From assembly GCA_020073115.1 (NCBI GenBank), contig JAIQFU010000001.1, positions 91,374 to 153,580 of the forward strand: a stretch of DNA of 62,207 nucleotides. Direction: 5' to 3'. Under the pieces are notes generated by a model. It saw only the letters and a program-made list of their open reading frames with translations, was not told the origin of the DNA and searched no databases. Positions 4,208-40,567 of the stretch are shown one piece after another. The position numbers were made by a program, and so were the translations under genes. Origin of the DNA: Terriglobia bacterium (GTDB taxonomy: Bacteria > Acidobacteriota > Terriglobia > Bryobacterales > Bryobacteraceae). Each line of letters opens with the position of its first letter. Position 1 is the stretch's first letter.

Positions 4208-5025
4208 TACTTCAGGTAGTGTTCCACAAATGCACGATTCTTTCGAGCCCAGGCCGTTTCGTCGCCCTCGGGGCCGCGCGCCACCTGCAAGACGAAATCG
4301 CCCCGATAGTCGATACGGCGCAAAGCTTTGAACAGCGCCGGAAAGTCGGCGTCGCCTTCTCCCAGAGGCACGGTGCCGCCGCCGCATACGCGGTCCTTGA
4401 TATGCACGCTGCCCACGCGATCCCCATAAGCCGCGAATTCCTCGAAGGGACGATACCCCAGGGAGGAACTGTTGCCCGAATCGTAGTTGACCTTGATGCC
4501 GGGGTGAGGCAAGCGAGCCAGCAGCGCGGCGAAATCATCCGGCGCCAGGGAGGTTTCGAGATGGAGTTCGATCCCGCACGCCTCGGCCGCGGGGAGCGCG
4601 CGTTCCAGGGCATCCACCGCGGCGTCCCGGTCGGCGGCGTCGCGAATGGCCGATTGATCGACAAACGGAAGCACTACCCGGTTCACGCCCACGCGCGCAG
4701 CGTGGCGCAGGAGCCGCCGCAGGTGTTCGAGTCGCACCTCGCGCTCGGCGTCGCCGGCCCGGACGAAAGCAAAATCCATAAAATAGTCGGCGCACACCGA
4801 GCGGACGGCGACACGATGCTCTTCCGAAAGCCGATGGATGCAGTCCACGCCCTGCTCCGTTTCGAGGGGGTTGAACCCCAGGCCCCACGTGTCGTAGACC
4901 CACTCGATCGCTTCCAGGCCCGCTTCGGCGGCAGCCGGGAACTCGGCGGCCCACCGCTCGCGCGGGAACGCCTGAATGCGTCCCGCTTCGGGGGGGACCA
5001 ACCTGCCTTGCATGATGCCGATCAT
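4207..5025 (-). CDS. Sugar phosphate isomerase/epimerase-like TIM-barrel protein
   Basis: A 272-residue protein of the xylose-isomerase-like TIM-barrel (AP_endonuc_2) superfamily. Recognisable segments are MIGIMQGRLVPP at the start, IELHLET, the metal-site-like VNYDSGNS and SVHIKDR. These positions carry Glu, Asp and His residues that normally bind a divalent metal. Members isomerise or epimerise free or phosphorylated sugars. The ATG at 5025 has a good ribosome-binding site (AGGAG) and lies 7 bases after the upstream stop; a longer in-frame extension to 5085 is rejected. In this operon it may epimerise the acceptor sugar used by the NeuB-like synthase, but that is inference. Confidence 0.78.
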   Translation of the reverse strand: MIGIMQGRLVPPEAGRIQAFPRERWAAEFPAAAEAGLEAIEWVYDTWGLGFNPLETEQGVDCIHRLSEEHRVAVRSVCADYFMDFAFVRAGDAEREVRLEHLRRLLRHAARVGVNRVVLPFVDQSAIRDAADRDAAVDALERALPAAEACGIELHLETSLAPDDFAALLARLPHPGIKVNYDSGNSSSLGYRPFEEFAAYGDRVGSVHIKDRVCGGGTVPLGEGDADFPALFKALRRIDYRGDFVLQVARGPEGDETAWARKNRAFVEHYLK

Positions 5026-5032
5026 TGTCTCC

Positions 5033-5911
5033 TCACTCGTCGAAGCGCAGCAACGCCGGATCGATGGAGGGCTTTCGCTCTTCATACCAGCGGTAGAGGC
5101 GCGTGATGGAATCGTCTATCTCGCGGAAGCGGAAATCCGGGATTTCGCTCATCAGCCGCGTGTTGTCGCCGCTGTACTCGCCGCCCAGCCCTTCGTTGCG
5201 GACCAGGATCTCCAGCGGCTTGCGGGAAGCGGCCACTACTTTCGCGGCCAGGGTCCTCAAATCGTAACTCCGGCCGGTACAGGCGTTGTAGTGGCGGTGG
5301 CTCAGGTTCGCCTGCAACAGCCGCTCCAGGATACGCCCCAGATCCTCAACGTCCAGATAATCGAAACACACGTTCTGGCGCAGGACCACGGGGAGGTCCC
5401 ACACGGCGCGGCAGCACGCGTTCGAAAGGAAGCGCACGCGCCAGTCTTCGTAAGGCCCGAAGACGCCGAAGAGGCGCAGCTCGTAAACGCGTTCGAGCGC
5501 GTCGATCGCTCTGGCGCAGAGGTACTTGGAGAAGCCGTAAGGCTCCGCAGGCACTCGGGCGTCGTATGCCTCTTCGGAGATCCGGCGCATGGGTTGCGCC
5601 CGGTCGTAGACCGCGCCGGAACTGAGGAAGAGCATGCGGCCGAACGCATGCGCGTTGCGCGCCAGGTTGAAGAACATACGGCAATTCTGTTCCAGCAGGT
5701 CCGGGGGGCGGCCGAGAAGCCGGTTGGAACGCGCTCCGGCGGCGTGGATGATGACGTCGAACCCGCCGCGCTCGACATATGCGCGCACGGCCGCGGCGTC
5801 GAGCAAGTTCAACTCCGGGCGGCAGGGCGCGGCGATCTGGTGCGTCCGGCCGAGTTCCCCGGCCAGGTTCCGCCCGATGAAGCCGCTGCCGCCGGTGATG
5901 AGGATTCTCAT
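5033..5911 (-). CDS. NAD-dependent epimerase/dehydratase
   Basis: A 292-residue extended SDR starting MRILITGGSGFIGRNL, with the classic GxxGxxG cofactor motif. A Ser in LSSGAVYD and YGFSKY form the catalytic Ser-Tyr-Lys set. It belongs to the nucleotide-sugar epimerase/dehydratase group (GalE/RmlD-like). It may be the 4-reductase or epimerase acting on the CDP-keto-deoxy sugar, since no obvious paratose or abequose synthase is otherwise present in the operon. The ATG at 5911 overlaps the upstream stop as ATGA. Confidence 0.85.
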   Translation of the reverse strand: MRILITGGSGFIGRNLAGELGRTHQIAAPCRPELNLLDAAAVRAYVERGGFDVIIHAAGARSNRLLGRPPDLLEQNCRMFFNLARNAHAFGRMLFLSSGAVYDRAQPMRRISEEAYDARVPAEPYGFSKYLCARAIDALERVYELRLFGVFGPYEDWRVRFLSNACCRAVWDLPVVLRQNVCFDYLDVEDLGRILERLLQANLSHRHYNACTGRSYDLRTLAAKVVAASRKPLEILVRNEGLGGEYSGDNTRLMSEIPDFRFREIDDSITRLYRWYEERKPSIDPALLRFDE

Positions 5912-6837: not shown

Positions 6838-8660
6838 AGGTCCTCCTCCAGCGGCGGAATGATCATATTCGCCCGGAACTCCTCCCGGTCCAGGAACGGC
6901 CAGAGATCTTCGAGTGGCTTGGAAACCAGCGAGCCGTCGGGCCGCTGCATCGAGGAAAGACGCGGGCCGCGGAGCTCATCCGGGATCACGCGAACGTCGC
7001 AAATCACCGGGCCGGGCGTCTCCAGGACGCGCCGCACCTGCCCGGTGAGGTTCTCCTGCGAAGAAATCCGCATAGGCGTGAGGCCGTAGGAGGCGGCCAC
7101 TTTGCAGAGGTCGGGGATGAAAAGCCCGGTCTCCTCGTCGCAGCCCAACTGCGGCGACCCGAAGAAAGCGGTTTGCGACGCACGGATGGAAGCGTAACCG
7201 CCATTGTTGAGGACGAAAAACTTGATGGGCAGATTCAGTTGCCGGACGGTGGCGAGTTCCTGGATATTGAACTGAAAGCCGCCATCGCTTTCAACACAAA
7301 CCGTGCGGCGGCGTTGGCCGGCAAGACACACCCCGATGCTGACCGGCAGGCCGCAGCCCATCGCGCCCAGGCCTGCCATGTGGAAAATGCGCTGGCCCCG
7401 CCGGGAGGGGCACGCGAAAAGATAGACCTCGATGGCGCTGCCCGCATTGCCGGAGATCATCAGGTCATCGGGGCCGGTTTCCCGCGCCATCACTTCGGCC
7501 AGGTGGAACACGCTCACCAATCCTTCCGGCTTGCGGTGTTCGGGGAGCACCACGGGATAACGGGCTTTCCAGTCCGCGCAGCGCGCCTTCCACGGTCCGC
7601 GATCCTTCAGCCGGACGAGGCCGCGCCGGTTCAGGACTTCGCGAAGGAAGCGGCCGGCGTCGGCGTACACGGGCGTATCGATATGAGGCGCGAGCTTGCG
7701 AATCTCGGCGGCGTCGATATCGACCATCACCTTGTGCGCCGCGCGTGCGAAGTTCTCGGGAGCGTAACCCGTGATGGCGAAGTCCAGCCGGGCGCCGATG
7801 GCCAGGAGAAAATCCGAATTCTGCAAGGCGAAGTTGGCTCCCCGCGAGGCGAGCGATCCGGGCCGCCCGGCGAACAGCGGATCGTCCGAAGATACGAGGT
7901 CCGCCGCGCACCACGTGGTCCCCACCGGGGCATCGAGAAATTCCAGAAAGTCGCGGAGTTCCGCCTCGGCTTTCGCCAGCCGCACGCCGTTGCCGATGAG
8001 TACGAACGGGCGTTCCGAGCGGTTCAGCGCCTCGATCGTCTCCCGGACCTTTTCCTGCAGCGTCGCCTCGTCGAAGGCGGGAGGGATCTCGCCGGGATCA
8101 AAGGCCGGCAGCGCCGTTTCATCGATGGGCGCGGCCTGTACGTCGAGCGGGATATCGATCCACACCGGCCCGGGACGCCCCTGGCGCGCCAGGTATACCG
8201 CTTTTTCCAGGTGATACCGGATGCTGGACGGGTCCAGCACCGTCACGGCGTACTTGGTTATGGATTGAACGATGGAAACGATATCGAGTTCCTGCACCCC
8301 AAGCTGGCGGACGCCGAGAGGCGTACCATCGGCGGCGAACATGCGGTCCGGCCGTTTCACCTGGCCGGAGATCACCAGCATGGGGGTGGAATCCAGCCAC
8401 GCGCCCGCCACGCCGGTGACGGCGTTCGTGCCGCCCGGTCCCGTGGTCACCAGGGCTACCCCGAGATTATGGGTCGCCTTGGCGTAGGCTTCGGCCGCCA
8501 TGGCGCTGGCCTGCTCGTGCGAATTGCATACGGGTTCGAGGGCCGCACACTGCGCCAACGCGGCATTCAGGTGCATGGCGCCGCCGCCGGTGACCAGGAA
8601 GACGTGTTTGACCCCCTGACCGGCGACGAAGCGCATTACGTAATCGGAGAGTTTGATCAT
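6834..8660 (-). CDS. Thiamine-diphosphate-dependent enzyme, YerE/acetolactate-synthase-like
   Basis: A 608-residue ThDP enzyme with the three-domain acetolactate-synthase layout. The catalytic Glu is at residue 49 (SHEQASAMAAEAYA). The N-terminal pyrimidine-binding domain has LVTTGPGGTNAV. The C-terminal ThDP/Mg site reads SDGGF then NNGGYASI, where most relatives have GDG. By eye the N-terminus resembles YerE of yersiniose biosynthesis, which adds a two-carbon unit from pyruvate to C4 of CDP-4-keto-3,6-dideoxyglucose. That is exactly the product expected from rfbF, rfbG and rfbH in this operon. The ATG at 8660 overlaps the upstream stop (ATGA) and follows AGGA, so it is preferred over the start 9 codons earlier. 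A catabolic or biosynthetic acetolactate synthase is less likely here. Confidence 0.82.
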   Translation of the reverse strand: MIKLSDYVMRFVAGQGVKHVFLVTGGGAMHLNAALAQCAALEPVCNSHEQASAMAAEAYAKATHNLGVALVTTGPGGTNAVTGVAGAWLDSTPMLVISGQVKRPDRMFAADGTPLGVRQLGVQELDIVSIVQSITKYAVTVLDPSSIRYHLEKAVYLARQGRPGPVWIDIPLDVQAAPIDETALPAFDPGEIPPAFDEATLQEKVRETIEALNRSERPFVLIGNGVRLAKAEAELRDFLEFLDAPVGTTWCAADLVSSDDPLFAGRPGSLASRGANFALQNSDFLLAIGARLDFAITGYAPENFARAAHKVMVDIDAAEIRKLAPHIDTPVYADAGRFLREVLNRRGLVRLKDRGPWKARCADWKARYPVVLPEHRKPEGLVSVFHLAEVMARETGPDDLMISGNAGSAIEVYLFACPSRRGQRIFHMAGLGAMGCGLPVSIGVCLAGQRRRTVCVESDGGFQFNIQELATVRQLNLPIKFFVLNNGGYASIRASQTAFFGSPQLGCDEETGLFIPDLCKVAASYGLTPMRISSQENLTGQVRRVLETPGPVICDVRVIPDELRGPRLSSMQRPDGSLVSKPLEDLWPFLDREEFRANMIIPPLEEDL

Positions 8661-9154
8661 GCTTCCTGTGTGGTCCTCCGGGGGCAAAACTTCCCGGAAA
8701 GGACCAGGTCGACCAGTTCCCTTACGGCGCCGTTCCCGGCGGACGCTGCGCTGACGAAATCGGCTTTGGCGCGCGCCGCGGGCTGGGCGTTCGCGGGGGC
8801 GGCGGCCAATCCGGACAGTTCCATCGCGGCGATGTCGTTCACATCGTCGCCCATGAAGCAGATTTCCTCCAGGGCCAGGCAGTTCCGCTCCGCGAAGCCC
8901 CGCAGCGCGGCCGCTTTGTCTTTACACCCTTTGGCGATGTCCGCCAGGTTGAACTTGGCGGCGAAGCGGTCTACCAGCGGGCTATCCTCGCCGGAAATGA
9001 GCGTTACCAGCAGGCCGGCCTTGCGGGCCAGTGAAACGCCCATGATATCGGGGAAGGAGAACCGCTTCCACTCGGCGCCGTCGGGGCCCCACCAGACTCC
9101 GCCGTCGGTCAGGACCCCGTCCACGTCCAGCGCGATGGCCTTTATCCCGGCCAT
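8657..9154 (-). CDS. KdsC-like HAD-family phosphatase
   Basis: A 165-residue HAD phosphatase of the small cap-less KdsC type. Motif I is LDVDGVLTDGG with nucleophile Asp10 and acid Asp12; motif II is ISGED; a Lys in CKDK serves as motif III; motif IV is GDDVND. The length matches KdsC (about 170-180). Relatives remove the phosphate from KDO-8-phosphate or nonulosonate-9-phosphate. It sits directly after the NeuB-like gene with no gap (TGA then ATG), so it probably dephosphorylates that enzyme's product. This implies that the synthase uses a phosphorylated acceptor. Confidence 0.87.
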   Translation of the reverse strand: MAGIKAIALDVDGVLTDGGVWWGPDGAEWKRFSFPDIMGVSLARKAGLLVTLISGEDSPLVDRFAAKFNLADIAKGCKDKAAALRGFAERNCLALEEICFMGDDVNDIAAMELSGLAAAPANAQPAARAKADFVSAASAGNGAVRELVDLVLSGKFCPRRTTQEA

Positions 9155-10057
9155 TCAGATATTCGCCCCGATGCGCCGCAGTTTCTTGATGATGGGCTGC
9201 TCGCGCTCCACCACGCGCTTTACGCCGTCCCCCAGCGACTGCTCGACAATGCGCACGTAGCTGACGATTTTGCCGATGCCGTTCGGCTCCAGCGACGCCG
9301 CCTGGTCCGAGCCCCACATGGCGCGATCGAGCGTGATGTGGCGCTCGATGCAGCAAGCCCCCAGCGCCACGGACGCTACCGTGGAAGGCAATCCGGTCTC
9401 GTGCCCGGAATAGCCCACCGGCAGCCCATAACGCTCACGCAGGCTGGTGATGGCCCGCAGGTTCAGCTCCGGATAGTAGGCCGGATAGACGCTGCATGCG
9501 TGCAACAGGACCAGGTCCTTCTTGCCCAGAATCTCCAACGCATGGTCGATCTGTTCGAGGGTGCTCATACCGGTAGAAAGAATGACCGGCTTGCCCTTGG
9601 ACCGCGTATGGCGCAGCAGGCTGTCGTCGGTAAGCGACGCGGAGGCGATTTTGAAGCAGGGAGGATCGAACTGATCGATGAAATCGACCGCCTTTTCGTC
9701 CCAGCACGAGGCGAACCACATCATTTTCACCTCGCGGCAGTAGCGGTCGATCAGCCGGTACTCGTCGTGGCCGAACTCCAGTCCCCGCTTGAGGTCGCCG
9801 TTGGTCGCGCCGAAGGGGCTTTCGCGGGGCTTGCCCAGTTCTTCGGCGGAGTACACGACGTCGACCGTGCGCTTTTGGAATTTGACGGCATCGCATCCCG
9901 CGGCTACCGCGACGCTGATGAGCCGCCGGGCGAGGTCGATGTCTCCGTTATGGTTGATGCCGATCTCGGCAATGATGAAACAGGGGTGACCGTCCCCTAT
10001 GAGCCTATTGCCGATCCGCACTTCGGCCAGAGCTCCACTTGTCGTCACGTCACTCAT
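9155..10057 (-). CDS. NeuB-family synthase lacking the C-terminal SAF domain
   Basis: A 300-residue protein of the N-acetylneuraminate synthase family, which condenses phosphoenolpyruvate with a sugar aldehyde. Conserved segments are FIIAEIGINHNGD, CDAVKFQKR, FKIASASLT, STGMST, the GYSGHE loop (usually GYSDHT) and IERHITLDR followed by SLEP. The protein ends about 40 residues after SLEP. Canonical NeuB/LegI/PseI proteins run to about 340-350 residues with a SAF (antifreeze-like) domain that supplies an active-site Arg. That domain is absent and no following frame appears to encode it. The substrate may therefore differ from ManNAc-type sugars. The next gene is a KdsC-like phosphatase; no CMP-sugar synthetase is visible. 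Confidence 0.86.
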   Translation of the reverse strand: MSDVTTSGALAEVRIGNRLIGDGHPCFIIAEIGINHNGDIDLARRLISVAVAAGCDAVKFQKRTVDVVYSAEELGKPRESPFGATNGDLKRGLEFGHDEYRLIDRYCREVKMMWFASCWDEKAVDFIDQFDPPCFKIASASLTDDSLLRHTRSKGKPVILSTGMSTLEQIDHALEILGKKDLVLLHACSVYPAYYPELNLRAITSLRERYGLPVGYSGHETGLPSTVASVALGACCIERHITLDRAMWGSDQAASLEPNGIGKIVSYVRIVEQSLGDGVKRVVEREQPIIKKLRRIGANI

Positions 10058-10060
10058 GTA

Positions 10061-11392
10061 TCAGACTCCCGCCCGCACGGTCTTCGCAACCAGACGGTGC
10101 AGGCTATCCAGCATGTAGTCGATCGCCGCCGGGACGATCCCGGGGTAGACGCCAATCCAAAAGACTTGATTCATCACGAAATCCGTATTTGGCAGAGATC
10201 CAATCGCGCGCTTCGGAGCATCCAGATACGCCGGCTGCCGGACAAGATTCCCTCCGAACAACAGCCGGGTGGCGATTTTGCATTCCTCGAGGTAGCGCGT
10301 GGCGTCGTTGCGCGAAAACGGCGCTTCGGGGCGCACGGCCATGGGAAAGCCGAACCAGCTCGGCTGGGAGCCGGGCGTGGCTTCCGGCAACACGAAGAAC
10401 TCCTCCAAGTCGCGCAGCCCCGCCCGCAACGCGTCGAAATTCAGGCGGCGCGCCTGGATGAAGCCGTCGAGCTTCCCTAGTTGCGCCACGCCGACGGCGG
10501 CCTGCATATCGGTCATTTTCAGGTTGTAGCCGATGTGCGAGTAGGTGTACTTGTGGTCGTAGCCGCGGGGCAGGTCTCCGAGCTGCCAGTCGAAGCGCTT
10601 CGCGCAGGTGTTGTCCTTCCCGGGGTCGCACCAGCAGTCCCGGCCCCAATCGCGGAACGACTCCACCAGGGTTCGGAGCAGCGGCGTCCCGGTCAGCACG
10701 CTGCCGCCTTCGCCCATGGTGATGTGGTGCGCCGGATAGAAACTGGTGGTCGCCAGGTCCCCGAACGTGCCCGCTTTGCGGCCGCGGTACGTGGAGCCGA
10801 CGGCGTCGCAGCAGTCCTCGATCAACCACAGGTCATGCCTCCGGACGAAGGCCGTCACCGCATCGAGGTCGAACGGGTTCCCCAGGGTGTGGGCCAAAAA
10901 GACGGCCCTGGTGCGCGGGGAAAGCGCCGCCTCGAATTGCGCCGCGTCCACGTTGTAGGTGGGGACGGTCACGTCCACGAATACCGGAACCAGGCCGTTT
11001 TGAAGAATCGGGTTGAGAGTGGTAGGGAAGCCCGCGGCGGTTGTGATCACTTCGTCGCCGGGCCGCAGGCGGCGATCGCCCAGCTTCGGCGACGTGAGCG
11101 CCGAAACGGCGAGCAGGTTGGCCGAAGACCCGGAATTCGCCAGCACGCAGTCCCGGACGCCGAACCAGCGCGCGAACTCGCGCTCGAACTGCGCGGCAAA
11201 GCGTCCCGTGGTGAGCCAGAAATCGAGCGCGGAATCCACCAGGAGCCGCATCTCCGCGGAGTCGAATACCTTGCCGGAAACGGGCACGGGCGTCTGGCCG
11301 GGAACAAAGGCGGCGGGAGCCCAAGCCTCGCCGCAATATTCCGCCACGAGAGCCAGAATCCGTTCCCGCAACTCGCCCGCGCGCGCCGTCAC
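10061..11392 (-). CDS. rfbH: CDP-4-keto-6-deoxyglucose-3-dehydratase (E1), RfbH
   Basis: A 443-residue protein matching RfbH/E1, the PMP- and [2Fe-2S]-dependent enzyme that removes the C3 hydroxyl of CDP-4-keto-6-deoxyglucose. The family hallmark of His replacing the PLP-binding Lys is present ([12 protein letters not shown]). The iron-sulfur motif C-X57-C-X1-C-X7-C is intact: the second Cys of EDCCDA, then CWC, then the Cys of DNTC. Other matches include [10 protein letters not shown] and [17 protein letters not shown]. The GTG at 11392 overlaps the rfbG stop as GTGA and gives an N-terminus aligning with known RfbH, so it is preferred over longer starts. The usual reductase partner (RfbI/AscD, E3) was not found in the window. 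Confidence 0.95.
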
Positions 11393-32271: not shown

Positions 32272-33248
32272 CTCCAGTTCTCCCGCGCGGCCCAATCCCG
32301 CAATTTTCCGGCGGATATGCGCACTACCCTGCGCCACGCGGCGCCCACGTCGAACTCGGCGGCCTCCAGGGTCACCGGGTGCGCGCCGAAATGACGTTTA
32401 TACAATGCCAGTCCCGAGGAGAGGTCGCTCACGCCGCCCAGGTTGAAGATGCGCCCGCCGTTTTGCCGGCACGCTTTGAGAATCTCGTAAAGCAGGAAAT
32501 GAGACGCCCCGATTCGCATGCCCTCCGGACTGGTCCCCGCGGTGTGGAGATAACCGCCGCCGGAGGACTCGGCCACCGTCATCGAAGAGACCGTCTCCGC
32601 GCCCGCCACCGCCTGAAAAAGGCGGCAGACCCCATCCAGATAAGGCCGCAGCAATTCCGCGTCGGGCTCAGACCAGACGTCTTCCCCGCGGGATTCGCGT
32701 CGGGTGAGCGAGGACCGCATGACCGCTACATGCTCCTTGAGATACCCGGGATCGCGCGTGACCCGGACTTCCAGCCCGGCTTTCATCCCTTTGCGGACCA
32801 TCCGCCGGTGATGCGGGTGCATCTGCTGGAGCAACCCGTCGCCGGGGCCGTCCATGGGGACCACAAATTCGTGCCGCTCGACGCGCCGCCGCTCCTCCCC
32901 CAGGCTCGGAATCGCCACGGCGGGCGAGGCGAACGTGTTCAGCTCGAGGATGGTCACTCCCTTCTTCCGGCAGAACTCCGCCAGCCCGCTCCAGAACGGT
33001 TCTTCCGCCGGGGGGAGCGATGGAAGCGTCAGCCTGCGGTCCAGGCGTCCGGAGCGGAGGAATCCCAGGCAGCCGTAGCGCAACTCTCCCCCGCTCGCGC
33101 ATCCCAGCAGCCAGGCGCCGCCGCCGAACGATCGCTCCGCCTGCAAATACGGAAACGTGGCGAATGGGTTTGCGGGTTGGAGCGAAGCCAATTCTCCGCA
33201 GCGCGCCTGCCCGGGGTCGGCTTCGGCGAAAAACTCAGGCCCCGGCAT
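32247..33248 (-). CDS. FemAB-like/GNAT-superfamily acyltransferase
   Basis: A 333-residue protein of the FemAB or Acetyltransf_6 type. Recognisable segments are LQPANPFATFPYL, HPHHRRMVRKGMKAG, YLHTAGTSPEGMRIGASHFLLYE and FNLGGVSDLSSGLALYKRHFGA, a core shared by lipid II aminoacyltransferase-like proteins. Such proteins transfer amino acids or acyl groups within envelope precursors. It overlaps the toroid gene upstream (33235) by 14 bases and the GNAT gene downstream. The substrate is unknown. Confidence 0.8.
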   Translation of the reverse strand: MPGPEFFAEADPGQARCGELASLQPANPFATFPYLQAERSFGGGAWLLGCASGGELRYGCLGFLRSGRLDRRLTLPSLPPAEEPFWSGLAEFCRKKGVTILELNTFASPAVAIPSLGEERRRVERHEFVVPMDGPGDGLLQQMHPHHRRMVRKGMKAGLEVRVTRDPGYLKEHVAVMRSSLTRRESRGEDVWSEPDAELLRPYLDGVCRLFQAVAGAETVSSMTVAESSGGGYLHTAGTSPEGMRIGASHFLLYEILKACRQNGGRIFNLGGVSDLSSGLALYKRHFGAHPVTLEAAEFDVGAAWRRVVRISAGKLRDWAARENWRWRRRIPG

Positions 33249-34419
33249 CGGCGGGTACCGTCCCGGTTTGCGATAGCGACTCCATCACCGCGTCGGCATA
33301 GAACTTTGTCGCCCAGTTCGGAAAGCCGTATTGGCAGTATTCGCCGTCAAAAGGATACGAGCCCTGAATCCCTCCGATCAGCGCCGCCGTATTCCCGCTC
33401 GATGCCTGGGTAGCCGTAACGAAGCCGAGCAACCGGTCCGCGCTCGCGGCGTACTCCGGGCGCGGACATTCTCTATGCGCCCGCAGGTAGGTCAGGGCGA
33501 TCTGGCAGGACCCGGTAAGGCAACTCCAGGCGGCCGCCGGTTTCCAATCTTGCGTCCACCGGCCGGCCAGCCGTCCGCGGTCGCCGACCAGCGGCCGGAT
33601 GCGATCCAGCGTTCTTAGCACGGCCTCCTGTAATGAGCTCCGCTGCAGGATGACGCCGCTTTCCCACAACCCCTCCAGCACGTAGCCGATCGTGTGCGTC
33701 AACGGCTTGTCGTTGAAGTCCAGGTCGTTTTCGGCGAACCATCCGTTCGGCTGCTGGCGGGACAGGGCGTATTCCCCAATCCGCAGGGCAGCGTCGCTGT
33801 ATTGCGCCTCTCCCGTCGCCTGCCCCAGAAGAGCGAGCGCCCACCCGGTTCGGACCTCGTACGCCTTCGCCCCGGCCCGGCAGAAATGCGAGTGGCCCCT
33901 GATGAACCGCCCGTCGCCGTCCAGGCACGCCAGCAGAAAATCGCCCGCGCGCCGCGCGGCGTTGACCCATCGCTCCGCCCCGTCCTCCCGGAATGCCGCG
34001 AGCAACCCGAAGACGACCTGCCCGGTCACGAAAGTGCTGGAGGCGACCGGCGTGGACCCGAGGACGCCGCCCTGGAACCCGCCGTCGGGCAGTTGAATGG
34101 TCAGTTCCCACTCCGCCATCCGCAGGGCGCGCTCCCGGCTGTCGCCGTCGCCCGCCAGGCGGGCGTAGCGCAGCATCGTTTCGACAATGTACCCCGTAGT
34201 TTCCGGGTAGGCCGCCCACCACCCGGTGGGCCATCCGTAGCGCGCCGGCGACCGGGCCACATAGCCCCACGCTACGCCGCCGTTCCCAGCGGCGTCCTGC
34301 GCTCTCTTCAGCCACTCGATCGCGCGTTGCAGCGATTGTTCGTCAGCCCCGACAGGCGCCGGTGAACCGCCCCGCTGCGCCCGAATCAGGCGCCACGCGT
34401 CCCAATGCTTCGGCCGCAC
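33235..34419 (-). CDS. Alpha/alpha-toroid protein (six-hairpin glycosidase-like or terpenoid-cyclase-like)
   Basis: A 394-residue protein with repeated helical units: GWPTGWWAAYPETTGYIVETML, LPDGGFQGG, HFCRAGAKAYEVRTGWALALL, and QPNGWFAENDLDFNDKPLTHTIGYVLEG. The G-x-W/F-F repeats and spacing fit an alpha/alpha toroid, as in six-hairpin glycosidases, pectate lyases or terpenoid cyclases. There is no signal peptide. GTG at 34419 is the annotated start, but upstream codons remain coding-like (ISLGRYAKDKARRALES) back to an ATT at 34479 preceded by GGGAGG. Function is unknown; a glycan-active role is inferred from the neighbours. Confidence 0.6.
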   Translation of the reverse strand: MRPKHWDAWRLIRAQRGGSPAPVGADEQSLQRAIEWLKRAQDAAGNGGVAWGYVARSPARYGWPTGWWAAYPETTGYIVETMLRYARLAGDGDSRERALRMAEWELTIQLPDGGFQGGVLGSTPVASSTFVTGQVVFGLLAAFREDGAERWVNAARRAGDFLLACLDGDGRFIRGHSHFCRAGAKAYEVRTGWALALLGQATGEAQYSDAALRIGEYALSRQQPNGWFAENDLDFNDKPLTHTIGYVLEGLWESGVILQRSSLQEAVLRTLDRIRPLVGDRGRLAGRWTQDWKPAAAWSCLTGSCQIALTYLRAHRECPRPEYAASADRLLGFVTATQASSGNTAALIGGIQGSYPFDGEYCQYGFPNWATKFYADAVMESLSQTGTVPADAGA

Positions 34420-34555: not shown

Positions 34556-35299
34556 TTATTCGCCGGCCGCCTGCGCTTTCGTCTTCGCGGGCCGCCCGAA
34601 ATTCCGGAAATACACTTCGGCCGGATTTCCCATCGCCAGGCTGTACGCGGGCACGTCTGAAATAACCACGCTATTCGCCCCGATTACCGCGCCCTCGCCG
34701 ACCGTAACGCCTTTCATAATGTGGCTGCCGTTTCCGATCCACGCATTCCGGCAGATTCTTACCGGCCGGATATCCGCCGCATGCACCGGCGCGTTCTGCG
34801 CCCTCAGGTCCGCTTCACGCGGATGGCCGTCCGTGTCGGAGATGCGGCAGTCGAACGAAATCAGCGCATCCTCCTCGATGACTACCTCCCGCGACACCGT
34901 TATGGTCACGTTCCAGTTGATGGCCGCGCGGTCTTTGATAATCAATTTCGGCTGTTCCAGTTGCCCGCCTGAAAGGATACTGACCCGGCCGCCCAGGCTG
35001 ACATCGTCCCCGATATGAATCTCCGCGTGGCCGCTGACGAACGGCAGGCCGCCCAGCACGAGATTCTTGCCCACGGACGCACACCGCGCCTGAAAGAGAG
35101 GATGCCGGTAGAACACGGTCACAAGCAGCCGCGCCACCATAATTACGCCGAAATGCGCTTCGTATAAAAGCCGCAGCGGCGGCTTCAGAAAAGTGGGCAA
35201 TCGCGGCGCCCGGGGCAGCGCGATCCACCGCGCCAGGGAACGGATGCGCCGGTATACCGGGCCCTCGCCCTTCTTTATCTTCCGGATCAGGTTATTCAT
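34556..35299 (-). CDS. Hexapeptide-repeat O-acyltransferase
   Basis: A 247-residue left-handed beta-helix acyltransferase. After a ~70-residue N-terminal region, repeats run through IHIGDDVSLGGRVSI, LISFDCRISDTDGHP (a D-T-D-x-H variant in the catalytic-loop position), CRNAWIGNGSHIMKGVTVGEGAVIGA. The final GNPAEVYFRNF segment is a standard ending. It probably acylates a hydroxyl on the glycan. The ATG at 35299 is preferred over an upstream extension. It is the first gene of a minus-strand unit divergent from the acyl carrier protein operon. Confidence 0.86.
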   Translation of the reverse strand: MNNLIRKIKKGEGPVYRRIRSLARWIALPRAPRLPTFLKPPLRLLYEAHFGVIMVARLLVTVFYRHPLFQARCASVGKNLVLGGLPFVSGHAEIHIGDDVSLGGRVSILSGGQLEQPKLIIKDRAAINWNVTITVSREVVIEEDALISFDCRISDTDGHPREADLRAQNAPVHAADIRPVRICRNAWIGNGSHIMKGVTVGEGAVIGANSVVISDVPAYSLAMGNPAEVYFRNFGRPAKTKAQAAGE

Positions 35300-35461: not shown

Positions 35462-35695
35462 ATGACGCGGGAACAGTTTCTTATGGAAATGGACCAACTC
35501 CTGGAACTCGCGCCCGGCACGCTGGGAGGACCGGAGAAGTTGGAGGATCTCGAGGAGTGGAACTCCACGGCGATGATCAGCTTCATCGCCCTTGCGGACG
35601 CCAACAACGGCACGCGCGTAGCGCCGCGGCAGATGGTGAATTGCGCCACCGTGGCCGACCTTCTCGCTCTGGCCCACGTGGACTCCGCCGGTTAA
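35462..35695 (+). CDS. Acyl carrier protein-like
   Basis: A 77-residue acidic protein of acyl-carrier size. The helix-II segment EEWNSTAMISFIALADANNG places a Ser at residue 35 in the position of the phosphopantetheine-bearing Ser (usually DSL). The C-terminal ATVADLLALA is typical. It would carry an acyl chain as a phosphopantetheine thioester. The next gene encodes a KAS III homologue 24 bases downstream, so the pair probably works together in a dedicated acylation. Confidence 0.75.
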   Translation: MTREQFLMEMDQLLELAPGTLGGPEKLEDLEEWNSTAMISFIALADANNGTRVAPRQMVNCATVADLLALAHVDSAG

Positions 35696-35719
35696 CGGCT
35701 CACCGCCCTGGAGAATCGG

Positions 35720-36775
35720 ATGCAAGCCGCTGTTTCGGCGATTGAATATTACCTACCCGAGCAAACCCTTTCCACGGCGGAGCTCGCCGCTGAATTCCCG
35801 GATTGGGGCGTGGAAAAAATCGATCGGAAAACGGGCATCCGGGAGCGCCGCATCGCCGCCCCCGGCCAATGCTCTTCGGATCTCGCCGTGGCGGCCGCCC
35901 GCAAGCTGTTCGCTTCCGGCGCCTGCCGGCCCGAAGACGTCGATTACCTGCTGCTCTGTACCGAAACCCCGGATTATTTTGTCCCTACGACCGCCTGCAT
36001 TATTCAGGACAGCCTGGGCCTCCCCATGAGCGCCGGCGCCCTGGATTTCAATCTCGGGTCTTCGGGCTATATCTACGGTTTCGGATTGGCCCAGGGTCTC
36101 ATCTCGTCCGGACAGGCAGCCCGCGTCCTGCTGCTGACCGCGGATGTGTACAGCCGGTTCCTGCATCCCCGCGACCGCAGCGTGCGCACGATCTTCGGAG
36201 ACGCTGCCACCGCGACCCTGCTCGCCGGCGCCGACCTGGACGCGCCCCTCATCGGCCCCTTCGTTTATGGCTCCGACGGCCGCGGCGCCCCCAATCTCAT
36301 CGTCCCCGCCGGCGGCATGCGGCGCCCGCACTCCGCCGAGTCCGCGGTGGCAGTCGAGGACCAGGCCGGAAATGTCCGCAGCCAGGACAACCTGTTCATG
36401 AACGGCGGCGAGATCTTTCTCTTCACGCTGGACGTGGTGCCCCTCGTCATCGGCCAACTGCTGCAAAAGGCCGGCCTGGCGTTGTCCGATATCGATTTCT
36501 TCGTTTTTCATCAGGCCAACCAGTCCATGCTCGATCCCCTCAGAAAACGCATGGGGATCCCCGCGGAGAAGTTTCAAATCTCGCTCGCGCACTGTGGAAA
36601 TACCGTTTCTTCCAGTATTCCCATCGCCCTCAAAGACGCCGCCGCCGCCGGCAGCATCCCCGACGGGGCGCTGGTCATGCTGGTCGGATTCGGCGCCGGC
36701 TATTCCTGGGGCGCAACCCTCGTCCGCTGGCGCGCGATCGGGAGCGCGCTGTTGTCCAACCGAAATGCCCGATGA
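35720..36775 (+). CDS. KAS III (FabH-like) homologue with Ser in place of the catalytic Cys
   Basis: A 351-residue thiolase-fold protein. It matches FabH in overall length and in the His (264, FHQANQSM) and Asn (294, HCGNTVSSS) of the catalytic triad. The nucleophile position reads FNLGSSGYIYG: Ser114 replaces Cys, as the codon TCT confirms. KAS III enzymes with this change are known in polyketide priming and acyl transfer (for example DpsC). It may use the adjacent ACP to transfer or prime an acyl group rather than do ordinary chain initiation. Downstream genes (Gfo/Idh, epimerase, flippase) suggest the acyl group ends on a sugar. Confidence 0.88.
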   Translation: MQAAVSAIEYYLPEQTLSTAELAAEFPDWGVEKIDRKTGIRERRIAAPGQCSSDLAVAAARKLFASGACRPEDVDYLLLCTETPDYFVPTTACIIQDSLGLPMSAGALDFNLGSSGYIYGFGLAQGLISSGQAARVLLLTADVYSRFLHPRDRSVRTIFGDAATATLLAGADLDAPLIGPFVYGSDGRGAPNLIVPAGGMRRPHSAESAVAVEDQAGNVRSQDNLFMNGGEIFLFTLDVVPLVIGQLLQKAGLALSDIDFFVFHQANQSMLDPLRKRMGIPAEKFQISLAHCGNTVSSSIPIALKDAAAAGSIPDGALVMLVGFGAGYSWGATLVRWRAIGSALLSNRNAR

Positions 36776-36827: not shown

Positions 36828-37910
36828 ATGTCTTTTATGAACGACCAAAACTGGACGCGCCCTCCCTTCAGGCTGGCCGTCGTCGGGTGCGGGGCGGTCA
36901 CCGAGGCCTGCCACCTTCCCGCCGCTCTGAAATCCTCGTTGGTAGAAGTGACCGCGCTGGTCGATCCGGCGCTCGAGCGCGCCGAAAGGTTGACCCGCCG
37001 TTTCGGGCTACGCTCCCGGGTCGCTGCCCGCTTGGAAGACGTAATCGATCTTGCCGATGGCGTGCTTATCGCCACCCCGAACCACACCCACTTCGACCTG
37101 GCCCGCCTCGTTCTGGAACGGAAACTCCCCGTGCTCGTGGAGAAGCCGTTGACCACCAGCTACGATCAGGCGCTGGAACTCTGCCGGCTGGCGGAAACCA
37201 ACCATACGACCCTTGCCGTCGGCTTCTGGACTCGTTTTCAACCTTGCGTCCGGCTCATGAAGTCCCTTCTTCAAACGGGGTATCTCGGCGCCGTGCGGGG
37301 CTTCCATTGCGAATCCGGATCGCGTGGCGGCTGGTCCCCGGTCTCCGCTTACAATCTGGATGCCAAGCTTGCCGGCGGCGGCATCCTCGTGGTTACCGGG
37401 ACCCACTATCTGGACCGCATCCTGGATTGGTTCGGCGAGCCCGAGATAGTGGAATTTCGCGACGACAGCTTCGGCGGTCCGGAGGCCAATTGCTTCGGCC
37501 GGCTTCGTTACCAGGGCGCTTCGGGTCCCTTCGAAGGCAGTTTCCTGGTATCGAAGACCGCGGGACTCAAGAATCGCTTCTTCCTCGAAACCGAACGGTA
37601 TAGCTGCGAGGTCACCGAGACCGAACCGAACGACATCATCGCGCGGCCTCACGACCACCCCGATCTCGTCCTCCGCCTGGGCTCCTCCTGCCTCCCGCGC
37701 GCAAAAAACGCGGACTACTACCAGCTTCAGCTCGAAGATTTCATCGCATCGGCCCGGTCCGGCAAGCCGCCCCTGGTGGACGGCCGATCGGGCGCCAAAT
37801 CCGTGAAGCTCGTGGCGGACCTCTACGCCCACCGGCTCCAGTTGGAGGAGCCTTGGATGTGGTATCGCAGGCCGGGAGCGGAGCCATGCGGTTTAACCGG
37901 GGGAGCGTGA
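36828..37910 (+). CDS. Gfo/Idh/MocA-family oxidoreductase
   Basis: A 360-residue NAD(P)-dependent dehydrogenase. The Rossmann segment is LAVVGCGAVTEACHLPA, the catalytic region is VLVEKPLTTS with the conserved Glu-Lys-Pro, and GTHYLDRILDWFGEP supplies the His of the active site. The C-terminal alpha/beta domain is complete. Family members oxidise or reduce sugar hydroxyls (for example WlbA/WbpB on UDP-GlcNAcA). An ATG 9 bases downstream (36837) is an equally good start. Its neighbours are the acyl carrier pair upstream and an epimerase downstream (4-base gap). Confidence 0.88.
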   Translation: MSFMNDQNWTRPPFRLAVVGCGAVTEACHLPAALKSSLVEVTALVDPALERAERLTRRFGLRSRVAARLEDVIDLADGVLIATPNHTHFDLARLVLERKLPVLVEKPLTTSYDQALELCRLAETNHTTLAVGFWTRFQPCVRLMKSLLQTGYLGAVRGFHCESGSRGGWSPVSAYNLDAKLAGGGILVVTGTHYLDRILDWFGEPEIVEFRDDSFGGPEANCFGRLRYQGASGPFEGSFLVSKTAGLKNRFFLETERYSCEVTETEPNDIIARPHDHPDLVLRLGSSCLPRAKNADYYQLQLEDFIASARSGKPPLVDGRSGAKSVKLVADLYAHRLQLEEPWMWYRRPGAEPCGLTGGA

Positions 37911-37914
37911 GCCC

Positions 37915-39096
37915 ATGCGGCACGAAACACTCGCCATTATCGGAGCCTCGGGATTTGTCGGATCCGCGCTTTGTGAGCGTCTTCATTTCGAAGGCTGCTG
38001 GAAATTCCTGCCTTTCATCCATTCCAGCGGCGCCGCCGCCCGCCTGGCCCGGCTCCCGCTGGCCGAAACTCCACGCGTCCTCGATCTGCTCGATTTCGAC
38101 GCTCTCCGGGCCACCCTCCGCGACGATATGATCGTCGTCAATTGCGGGCGCGGCGACAACCAGGCGCTGTCTCGCGGCTTTCAAAACCTGGTCCAGGCGG
38201 CCCGCGCCGCCAAGGTCCGTAAATTCATCCACATCGGCAGCGTGGCGATATACGGCGACGATCCGCTTCCCGCCAGCGCGGACCCGTCCTGCCCCGTGAA
38301 CGCGCAGGCCACCGATTACGGACTCGTCAAACAACGCCAGGACGAACTGGTCTTCCGCCTGCACGCCGGCGGCGTTCCAAGCTACATCCTCTGTCCTTCC
38401 AACATCGCGGGCCCCTACGGGCTGACGTCGGTTGGTCTGGTTCAGCGCTTCGCCGCGGATCCTCTTCCCCTGGTTGACGAAGGGCGCTATCCCTGCAATC
38501 TCGTCCACGTGGACAACCTGGTGGAGGCCATTTTGACCGCCGCCGCGAGCGACCGTGGAGCCGGGCGCCGCTATTTCGTCAACGAGCTGGAACCCATCAG
38601 CTGGAAACGGTATTTTGACGATTTCTCGCGCCTGCTGGGCATCCGCGCCACCTATCTTCCGGTCTCCCGGGATGCCGTCATCGCCTCCATGGCGCCCGTT
38701 CCCGTTGCTTCCAGGGGCCTTTACGAACACGCCAGGATCGCTCTCTCCGGCGAGTTTCGCAGAACCCTGTTGATGATGCCTGTCTTGGAATGGTTGAACG
38801 GCCGCGCCGCCGCGGCCTTCGAAGCCATGCCCGGGGGTTGGCGCCGGAGCATTCGCCGCAAGTTCGAGAGGCCCGTCAGGCTCCCGAAAACTCCCGCCGG
38901 CCCTTCCTTGTCGGATGCCTGGGTACGCCTCCAGGCCAGGCGTCCCTTCCATAGCCCGGAAACCCTGGTCCAGGAATTAGCATTCAAACCTGCCCTGACG
39001 TACGAGAAGGGTCTGGAGCTGACCGCGCAATGGTTCCGTTTGTTTGGCATCGGCGCCGCCCGCCCCGGTTATTGCCATGATGCCTTCTCCGGTTGA
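37915..39096 (+). CDS. NAD-dependent epimerase/dehydratase family protein
   Basis: A 393-residue extended SDR. GASGFVGSAL is the NAD motif, IGSVAIYGDDP contains the catalytic Ser, and YGLVKQRQ the Tyr and Lys. CPSNIAGPYG and VHVDNLVEAIL are typical of nucleotide-sugar epimerases. The C-terminus is about 80 residues longer than GalE-like enzymes. The product is probably a modified nucleotide sugar. The 3' end overlaps the flippase start by 20 bases. Confidence 0.84.
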   Translation: MRHETLAIIGASGFVGSALCERLHFEGCWKFLPFIHSSGAAARLARLPLAETPRVLDLLDFDALRATLRDDMIVVNCGRGDNQALSRGFQNLVQAARAAKVRKFIHIGSVAIYGDDPLPASADPSCPVNAQATDYGLVKQRQDELVFRLHAGGVPSYILCPSNIAGPYGLTSVGLVQRFAADPLPLVDEGRYPCNLVHVDNLVEAILTAAASDRGAGRRYFVNELEPISWKRYFDDFSRLLGIRATYLPVSRDAVIASMAPVPVASRGLYEHARIALSGEFRRTLLMMPVLEWLNGRAAAAFEAMPGGWRRSIRRKFERPVRLPKTPAGPSLSDAWVRLQARRPFHSPETLVQELAFKPALTYEKGLELTAQWFRLFGIGAARPGYCHDAFSG

Positions 39097-40567
39097 GTAC
39101 CCTGGTTCCGAGTTGGGCCGCGCCGCCCTCGACCGCCGGCTTGTCTCCGGCGTGGCCTGGACCGCGGTGGCCCGGTGGGGCGGGCAGATCGTCTCCTGGG
39201 CCTCCATGCTCCTGCTGGCCAAACTCCTCTCTCCCGAGGATTTCGGCCTCTTCGGCATGACCACCCTGTTCCTGGGTTTCGTCACCGTCGTCAGCGAGTT
39301 CGGAATCGGCAGCGCCATCCTCATGCTGCGGGAACTCTCCCCCGGCGAGATCCGGCAAATGCACGCCCTCTCCCTGCTCCTGGGAGCCGCCGGGAGCATT
39401 CTGTCCCTCTGCGCCGCGCGGCCGGTCGCCGCTTTTTTCCATAATTCCCGGCTCGAGCCGCTGGTCGCCGTCATGGGAATCGGATTTCTGCTATCCGGCG
39501 TCCGGGTGGTTCCGCAATCGGTTCTTCTCCGGGACCTGAAATTCAAGCTGGTGTCCGGGCTCGAGGCCCTCATGGTCGTGGTCCAGGCGCTCGCCAGCGT
39601 GCTTTTGGCCTGGCTCGGCATGCGCTACTGGTCGCTCGTGTTGGGAGGGCTCATCGCCAGCGCCGCGGCCTCGCTGCTTTTCTACATCGCATCTCCCTGC
39701 GCCTTCGCCAGGCCCGTTCTCGGGCAACTCAGAGGGGAATTGCGGTACAGCCGCCGCGTCCTGATGGGGCGCGTCACCTGGTATCTCTATTCGAACGCCG
39801 ATTTCGCCGTGGCCGGCCGGTTCCTCGGAGAGGCCGCCCTGGGCGTCTACAACATGGCCTGGAACCTCGCCAACCTTCCCCTGGACCGCATCGCCACCCT
39901 CATTTTTCGAGTCACGCCCTCCATCTTCTCCAGCGTGCAGCACGATGCCGCCGAGTTGCGGCGTTACCTGCGGGTGTTGACCGAGGGAATGTCCCTGATT
40001 GTCTTCCCGGTCGGAATCGGAGTGGCGCTCGTGGCCGATCCTCTGGTTGCGGCGGCGTTTGACAAGAGGTGGGCCGGTCTCGCGATGCCCCTCCGCCTGC
40101 TCGCTCTCAACGCCGTGCTGCGCTGTCTCACGATTCTGTACGGCCAGGTTCAAACAACCATCCGGGACGTGCGCTACGGCATGTGGCAGGGCATCGTCAG
40201 CCTCGCCGTGCTCCCCGTCTCGTTCTGGTATGCCAGCCGCTGGGGCGGAAGCGGAATCGCCGCCGCCTGGCTGTGCCTGTACCCCCTTCTAAACGGCCCG
40301 CCGCTGTTTCGCGTGCTGCGCAAAATCGCCATGCCCAAAAGCGAGTACCTCCGGGCCATCGCGCCTGCCGGACTGGCGTCCGCCGCCATGGCCGCCGCCG
40401 TCCTGGCCGCCGGCCTCTACGCGCCGGCGCTCCGCCCGCTCCCGGAATTGCTGGCCCGGACGGCCCTCGGCGCGGCCGTCTACCTCGGCGTCCTGTTCCT
40501 GTTCTTCCGCGGGCGCGTCAATGTTTTTCTGTCGCTCGTTCTCCGCCCGAAATCGGCGGCCGCATGA
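39077..40567 (+). CDS. Wzx-type polysaccharide flippase (MOP superfamily)
   Basis: A 496-residue membrane protein with about 12-14 hydrophobic segments. Conserved regions are RRLVSGVAWTAVARWGGQIVSW at the N-terminus, LLSPEDFGLFGMTTLFLGF, and YSRRVLMGRVTWYLYSNADFAVAGRFLG, all characteristic of Polysacc_synt/Polysacc_synt_3 exporters. It would flip a lipid-linked repeat unit across the inner membrane. The start is ATG at 39077 or 39080; an upstream TTG extension overlapping the epimerase gene is not needed. Wzy and Wzz partners are not evident in the window. Confidence 0.9.
   Translation: MMPSPVEYPGSELGRAALDRRLVSGVAWTAVARWGGQIVSWASMLLLAKLLSPEDFGLFGMTTLFLGFVTVVSEFGIGSAILMLRELSPGEIRQMHALSLLLGAAGSILSLCAARPVAAFFHNSRLEPLVAVMGIGFLLSGVRVVPQSVLLRDLKFKLVSGLEALMVVVQALASVLLAWLGMRYWSLVLGGLIASAAASLLFYIASPCAFARPVLGQLRGELRYSRRVLMGRVTWYLYSNADFAVAGRFLGEAALGVYNMAWNLANLPLDRIATLIFRVTPSIFSSVQHDAAELRRYLRVLTEGMSLIVFPVGIGVALVADPLVAAAFDKRWAGLAMPLRLLALNAVLRCLTILYGQVQTTIRDVRYGMWQGIVSLAVLPVSFWYASRWGGSGIAAAWLCLYPLLNGPPLFRVLRKIAMPKSEYLRAIAPAGLASAAMAAAVLAAGLYAPALRPLPELLARTALGAAVYLGVLFLFFRGRVNVFLSLVLRPKSAAA

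Follow-up and report, generated by a model that had tools for sequence, protein, structure and literature searches.

Ketosynthases that have lost their nucleophilic cysteine are known from the loading modules of polyketide synthases, where the KSQ enzymes decarboxylate malonyl groups; with the loss of the cysteine, condensation is lost and decarboxylation is kept. Within the ketosynthase III (KASIII) family, mutants of FabH are reportedly the subject of work by Davies et al. FabH is described as loading its acyl group by means of Cys and as decarboxylating malonyl-acyl carrier protein (malonyl-ACP) by means of His and Asn (PMC4807248). In the published account of the engineered BioZ variant C115S, condensation was completely abolished and the serine became acylated (PMC7645780). 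Serine occurs naturally in DpsC, which handles ACP-bound acyl groups (PMC12664062) and for which both an acyltransferase-like triad of S118-H297-D302 (PMC12664062) and a Ser-His-His triad (PMC9573744) have been put forward. CerJ and ChlB3 are described as KASIII-like acyltransferases with a Cys-His-Asp triad, CerJ acting on a sugar hydroxyl (PMC9573744). The formation of acetyl-ACP by malonyl-ACP decarboxylation has also been reported for MadA, a protein of unrelated fold (PMC8666670).

A KASIII homolog with serine at the nucleophile position

The 62,207-nucleotide stretch of DNA from a soil acidobacterium analyzed here (the window) encodes a KASIII in which Ser114 replaces the catalytic Cys (positions 35720 to 36775, + strand; an open reading frame of 351 amino acids, assigned by Pfam, a structure model, and a fold match). 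The Ser114 codon, TCT, was read directly from the sequence at positions 36059 to 36061 (+), and it is immediately followed by a second serine, Ser115 (TCG). His264 (36509 to 36511, +), in an FHQAN motif beginning at residue 263, and Asn294 (36599 to 36601, +), in a GNTVSS motif beginning at residue 293, are both present, and the ACP_syn_III and ACP_syn_III_C domains of Pfam both scored above the cutoff. The first-pass annotation of this DNA had described these three residues and an accompanying ACP gene, and both open reading frames were confirmed as it had given them. The protein shares the KASIII fold and the catalytic His and Asn with Escherichia coli FabH and with BioZ, but their nucleophile is Cys, and in this residue it departs from a canonical FabH. 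The AlphaFold2 model was good (mean pLDDT, 86). The closest solved relative was 3gwa (3gwa/3gwe; 55% identity over 336 residues, Z 46 in the fold comparison), a 3-oxoacyl-ACP synthase III from Burkholderia pseudomallei and a structural genomics entry for which we know of no established function. It belongs to the same subfamily and has the same His and Asn, but its catalytic Cys aligns at position 114.

A likeness to DpsC had been suggested in the first-pass annotation. The Ser nucleophile is indeed shared, but by the published descriptions the analogy fails on the triad, which is Ser-His-Asn in the window and Ser-His-Asp or Ser-His-His in DpsC (PMC12664062, PMC9573744), the FabH-type Asn being retained in all seven Ser- or His-bearing proteins described below. 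DpsC moreover acts in polyketide priming, with no left-handed beta-helix (LbH) partner in the accounts drawn on here. The Cys-His-Asp triad with which CerJ and ChlB3 are described as transferring acyl groups is likewise lacking in the window protein, which has Ser114, Asn294, and Ser299; residue 299 was either Ser or Thr among the Ser and His forms. Membership in the DpsC or CerJ groups was therefore ruled out on the triads as published. CerJ (3S3L) and DpsC (5WGC) were not among the 50 fold matches listed for the window KASIII, a result that excludes neither.

Distribution and origins of the serine and histidine forms

The KASIII subfamily was found in 32 of 237 genomes of the family, at 37 places (E value of 1e-100 or better), and position 114, which was read at all of them, was Cys at 30, Ser at 5, and His at 2. 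A broader comparison covered 104 distinct loci, after removal of 15 duplicates in which the same contigs had been included twice, and comprised 97 Cys, 5 Ser, and 2 His loci; four loci that were added later had Cys. At nine of the 104 (L070 to L073 and L155 to L159) the KASIII was less than 50% identical to that of the window, and dropping these left 95, of which 88 had Cys, 5 had Ser, and 2 had His. All seven Ser and His forms found were confined to this acidobacterial family. Among 396 genomes of the phylum searched, six besides that of the window contained a match, always with Cys, and a scan of species genomes covered the best 80 of 566 relatives, including Flavobacterium, Paraburkholderia, Photobacterium, and Nostoc; Ser or His forms may exist beyond these two sets. 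Among those 80 relatives, clusters of KASIII and ACP genes came from many phyla; to our knowledge, their products are seldom known.

The nearest homolog of the window KASIII (81% identity, same genus) also has Ser at position 114. Ser is found there as well as at three loci beyond the genus, with His at two more, so an error of assembly does not account for Ser114. The proposal that Cys114 in other strains would count against a special role gave a mixed outcome within the genus: the direct ortholog in genome G096 has Ser, but G096 also has two Cys homologs, and G037 and G123 have a single homolog each, with Cys. The FabH-type His and Asn were retained in 7/7 Ser and His proteins. Position 83 (codon at 35966 to 35968, +), identified from the alignment of Ser and Cys forms, was Thr in all five Ser forms and Ser in all 14 close Cys rows. 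Over 76 Cys forms it was Ser in 64 and Thr in 7 (L087 and L164 among these), so that Thr83 is not exclusive to the Ser forms.

In two proteins (L061, positions 8001 to 9035; L100, positions 1872 to 2876), His occupies the nucleophile position, within AHSGY and GHSGY, respectively, and the catalytic His and Asn are retained. We know of no earlier description of His at the nucleophile position of a KASIII, and among open-access titles and abstract openings we found no report of a glycan-cluster KASIII with natural Ser or His.

A maximum-likelihood phylogeny was constructed from 41 rows with column 114 left out. These rows were all 21 of the Ser/His-bearing clade of a larger tree together with 20 others chosen by hand; the larger tree had five sequences of less than 50% identity as its outgroup, and its ingroup excluded 16 near-identical Flavobacterium rows, L103, and the nine loci below 50%. 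The states at position 114 require at least four changes on the 41-row tree. A single clade of the five Ser rows was rejected (p-AU, 0.0125), as was a single clade of the seven Ser and His rows (p-AU, 0.0036). The ratio of nonsynonymous to synonymous substitution (dN/dS) was about 0.09 for the Ser pair of the window and L042, about 0.09 for the His pair L061 and L100, and 0.08 for a Cys pair, values that are rough given a dS of 1.2 to 2.8. As in the Cys pair, selection on the Ser and His pairs is purifying.

Some Cys clusters contain more than one KASIII. At L046 (G095:C190), an ACP gene and a gene for a short-chain dehydrogenase/reductase (SDR) are flanked by two KASIII copies, each of this subfamily and each with Cys. 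Many other Cys clusters (L116, L095, and L082 among them) have a second KASIII that is about 32 to 47% identical, also with Cys, near genes for an ACP, an SDR, and a transferase resembling PglD/NeuD, which are often joined by an aminotransferase-like gene. The presence of two KASIIIs per cluster is a puzzle that calls for explanation.

The conserved cassette and its missing reductase

The small ACP gene (35462 to 35695, +; an open reading frame of 77 amino acids assigned by profile search) has its attachment site at Ser35, in EWNST (codon 35564 to 35566). It had no Pfam match at an E value of 0.01. With a profile seeded from it, small ACPs were detected at 87 of 104 distinct loci (88 copies), and in 80 of the 88 copies the attachment site reads W[DN]S. 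With a dN/dS of about 0.23, the ACP evolves faster than the KASIII. On the opposite strand, and divergently oriented to the ACP gene, lies LBH1 (34556 to 35299, −), which encodes an LbH (hexapeptide) acyltransferase with Hexapep and WbbJ-like matches in Pfam. The protein has hexapeptide repeats and is related to solved LbH O-acetyltransferases; the best solved match of its profile was the polysialic acid O-acetyltransferase OatWY (3jqy; E value, 1.2e-18). The solved relatives of LBH1 are acetyl-CoA-type enzymes. OatWY takes acetyl-CoA as its donor, and we know of no ACP or KASIII partner for it. His159 in the DGHP motif of LBH1 is presumably catalytic, with a role as in the LacA/WbbJ type, and DGHP was present in 18 of 19 aligned members. 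The sole exception is the LBH1 copy of L044 (positions 4278 to 5066), which has DGYP in place of DGHP at the likely catalytic His. The structure model of LBH1 had a pLDDT of 64, and no column of the LBH1 alignment clearly separated Ser/His cassettes from cassettes with Cys and an SDR.

An LbH acyltransferase of the O-acetyltransferase type adjoins the ACP or the KASIII gene at 7/7 Ser/His loci, and the conserved unit is LBH1, ACP, and KASIII. The first-pass annotation, in which LBH1 and the missing reductase went unmentioned, had drawn its partners from the other side of the KASIII, namely, a Gfo/Idh/MocA oxidoreductase (36828 to 37910, +) and an extended SDR of the epimerase family (37915 to 39096, +). 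Both lie outside the conserved cassette, and this part of its reading was not supported at the sister locus L042, which has no counterpart of either gene between the KASIII and the flippase. The MOP-type flippase gene (39044 to 40567, +) adjoins the KASIII in L042 as well. A functional unit of Gfo/Idh enzyme, epimerase, and flippase was ruled out since L042 does without the first two, and the extended SDR, which has a weak match to OleD, was ruled out as a general substitute reductase because it is absent there in L042. The suggestion in the first-pass annotation that the KASIII handles acyl groups for a glycan, without condensing, fared better: apart from the DpsC analogy it is supported by the LbH acyltransferase at all seven loci and by the published behavior of BioZ C115S (PMC7645780). 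At 33235 to 34419 (−), the window also encodes a protein of 394 amino acids without a Pfam match and with only a weak squalene-cyclase-like match in NCBIfam; its gene adjoins FemAB/GNAT-type genes of the glycan cluster.

In the window, 24 bases separate the ACP from the KASIII (35696 to 35719, +). The gene for a FabG-like SDR occupies this place in L044, L074, and L168, where the order is LBH1 (reverse), ACP, SDR, and a Cys-bearing KASIII; the window and L042 (Ser) and L061 and L100 (His) have the same order without the SDR, and the three genes are arranged otherwise at the remaining Ser/His loci (L054, L085, and L091). A FabG-like SDR was present within 3 kb at 69 of 97 Cys loci and absent from that range at 28, some of these flanks being short, and it was found at none of the seven Ser/His loci at any distance examined. 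When only LBH1-linked loci with a KASIII more than 50% identical to that of the window were counted, 8 of 10 with Cys carried the SDR and none of the 7 with Ser or His did (Fisher P = 0.0023, which treats loci as independent and is not an evolutionary test). L072 (without SDR) and L073 (with SDR) have LBH1, but their KASIIIs are 42 to 43% identical and were left out of this count. A locus can lack the SDR and still have Cys, as is the case at L048 and L076, both LBH1-linked, and at other Cys loci. Ten cassette SDRs share 43 to 64% identity among themselves; no such SDR was found elsewhere in the genome of the window, where SDR matches were at most 34% identical. Genome G096 carries both forms of the cassette, as L042 (Ser) and L044 (Cys).

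On the tree, L044 is the sister of the window plus L042. The direction of change was probably from Cys to Ser or His with loss of the SDR. In one clade (L054, L052, L085, and L091), the tree is equally compatible with a single loss of Cys followed by a regain of Cys and the SDR in L052, in which the SDR sits in a different place and orientation. An independent-pairs test yielded three pairs on supported branches, with an average of 2.7 concordant and 0 opposite. With only about four independent changes and three pairs, the link between residue and SDR is beyond the reach of phylogenetic significance.

Possible function of the cassette

We hypothesize that the three genes form a glycan-acylation cassette in which the KASIII no longer forms carbon-carbon bonds and instead supplies a simple acyl-ACP for LBH1, a reading to which we assign a probability of roughly 0.5. 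What each enzyme does, and which acyl group is involved, are inferred from the genes. 3-Hydroxybutyryl amino sugars occur in flagellin and O-antigen. In the presumed ancestral cassette, a Cys-bearing KASIII would have condensed acyl-CoA with malonyl-ACP. Reduction of the resulting 3-oxoacyl-ACP by the FabG-like SDR would probably have given 3-hydroxybutyryl-ACP, whose acyl group the LbH transferase would have moved onto a sugar. In the window, the Ser-bearing KASIII would most likely convert malonyl-ACP to acetyl-ACP, or provide another short unreduced acyl-ACP, and LBH1 would pass the acyl group from the ACP to a glycan hydroxyl or amine. That the ACP is the acyl source for LBH1 is suggested by the linkage of their genes.

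It is likely that the Ser and His forms do not condense, given the role of Cys in FabH and the effect of C115S as described for BioZ, and loss of condensation fits the absent reductase. The assignment of malonyl-ACP decarboxylation as the remaining activity is more tentative. Decarboxylation to acetyl-ACP appears to be the most likely outcome because His264 and Asn294 remain. Their retention is merely permissive, however, as the Cys forms keep both residues too, and the acetyl-CoA already at the disposal of the cell counts against acetyl-ACP as the product. The KSQ enzymes likewise have the nucleophile replaced and the His/Asn-type residues kept, an analogy only, as they have Gln for Cys and belong to the elongating-type ketosynthases, in contrast to the Ser or His of this KASIII family.

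The main rival is that the KASIII is a DpsC-like acyl-CoA:ACP (or acyl-CoA:sugar) transacylase, in which an acyl-Ser114 ester would be passed to the ACP and on to LBH1. Such a route is compatible with the absent SDR and has precedents in the acylated serine reported for BioZ C115S (PMC7645780) and in DpsC, whose natural Ser is described as self-acylating and as loading its own ACP (PMC12664062). The ester in BioZ was, however, by the published account chosen as a trap for its poor reactivity (PMC7645780), CerJ C116S is reported to be inactive (PMC9573744), and the window protein lacks a His/Asp pair of the ChlB3/CerJ type, keeping Asn294, with Ser or Thr at residue 299 among the Ser and His forms. 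The His of two relatives, moreover, cannot form such an ester. We consider transacylation rather unlikely, and we favor decarboxylation over it because His and Asn are kept in all seven proteins and one lineage has His in place of Ser.

It is also conceivable that the enzyme still condenses, with Ser as a slow nucleophile, and that a housekeeping FabG or the extended SDR at 37915 to 39096 reduces the product. The retained His and Asn would suit this, as would the Cys loci that lack the cassette SDR and the weak OleD match of the neighboring enzyme. This explanation is improbable in view of the complete inactivity described for BioZ C115S (PMC7645780) and the lack of the extended SDR between KASIII and flippase in L042, and its mechanism is impossible for the His forms. 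That either Ser or His can stand in place of the nucleophile could instead point to a noncatalytic partner or scaffold that binds acyl-ACP or LBH1, much as PqsB, described as lacking all three catalytic residues, accompanies PqsC (PMC4807248). Retention of His264 and Asn294 in 7/7 proteins and the low dN/dS make a scaffold very improbable, and a second KASIII was not found in the flanks examined at the seven Ser/His loci. A decaying gene or sequencing artifact is scarcely credible: the assemblies are mostly metagenomic and the ACP evolves faster, but the repeated changes, purifying selection, intact frames, conserved neighbors, and recurrent residue at position 83 all argue against it.

If decarboxylation for LBH1 is correct, a single active-site change combined with loss of a reductase would change the decoration of a surface sugar from 3-hydroxyacyl to acetyl while reusing the same ACP-dependent transferase, and bacteria could alter their surface acyl groups by disabling a single step of a carrier-protein pathway. 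More speculatively, natural KASIIIs may have repeatedly become malonyl-ACP decarboxylases for glycan acylation (Cys to Ser, and once to His), as a counterpart of KSQ. The recurrent replacement of Cys, in every case at a locus lacking the reductase, amounts to a mutational experiment carried out by nature that predicts the acyl group for each cassette, and L042 and L044 of G096 provide a matched Ser/Cys pair within one genome.

Paralogous LbH genes were also found near FkbH genes in L172, L177, L179, and L180, with an ACP in all but L179. At L172 (G000:C595, positions 7093 to 10221), about 5 to 8 kb before the start of the window, genes for an FkbH-type protein, an ACP, a VOC/methylmalonyl-CoA-epimerase-like protein, and a paralog of LBH1 are consecutive; the paralog is 47% identical to LBH1 and lies beside its own ACP. 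FkbH of tetronate pathways is described as producing glyceryl-ACP (PMC7489565). By analogy, this row of genes would seem to be a glyceryl-ACP counterpart of the proposed cassette, with an LbH protein and an ACP as in the window but with FkbH, rather than a KASIII, as the loader of the ACP.
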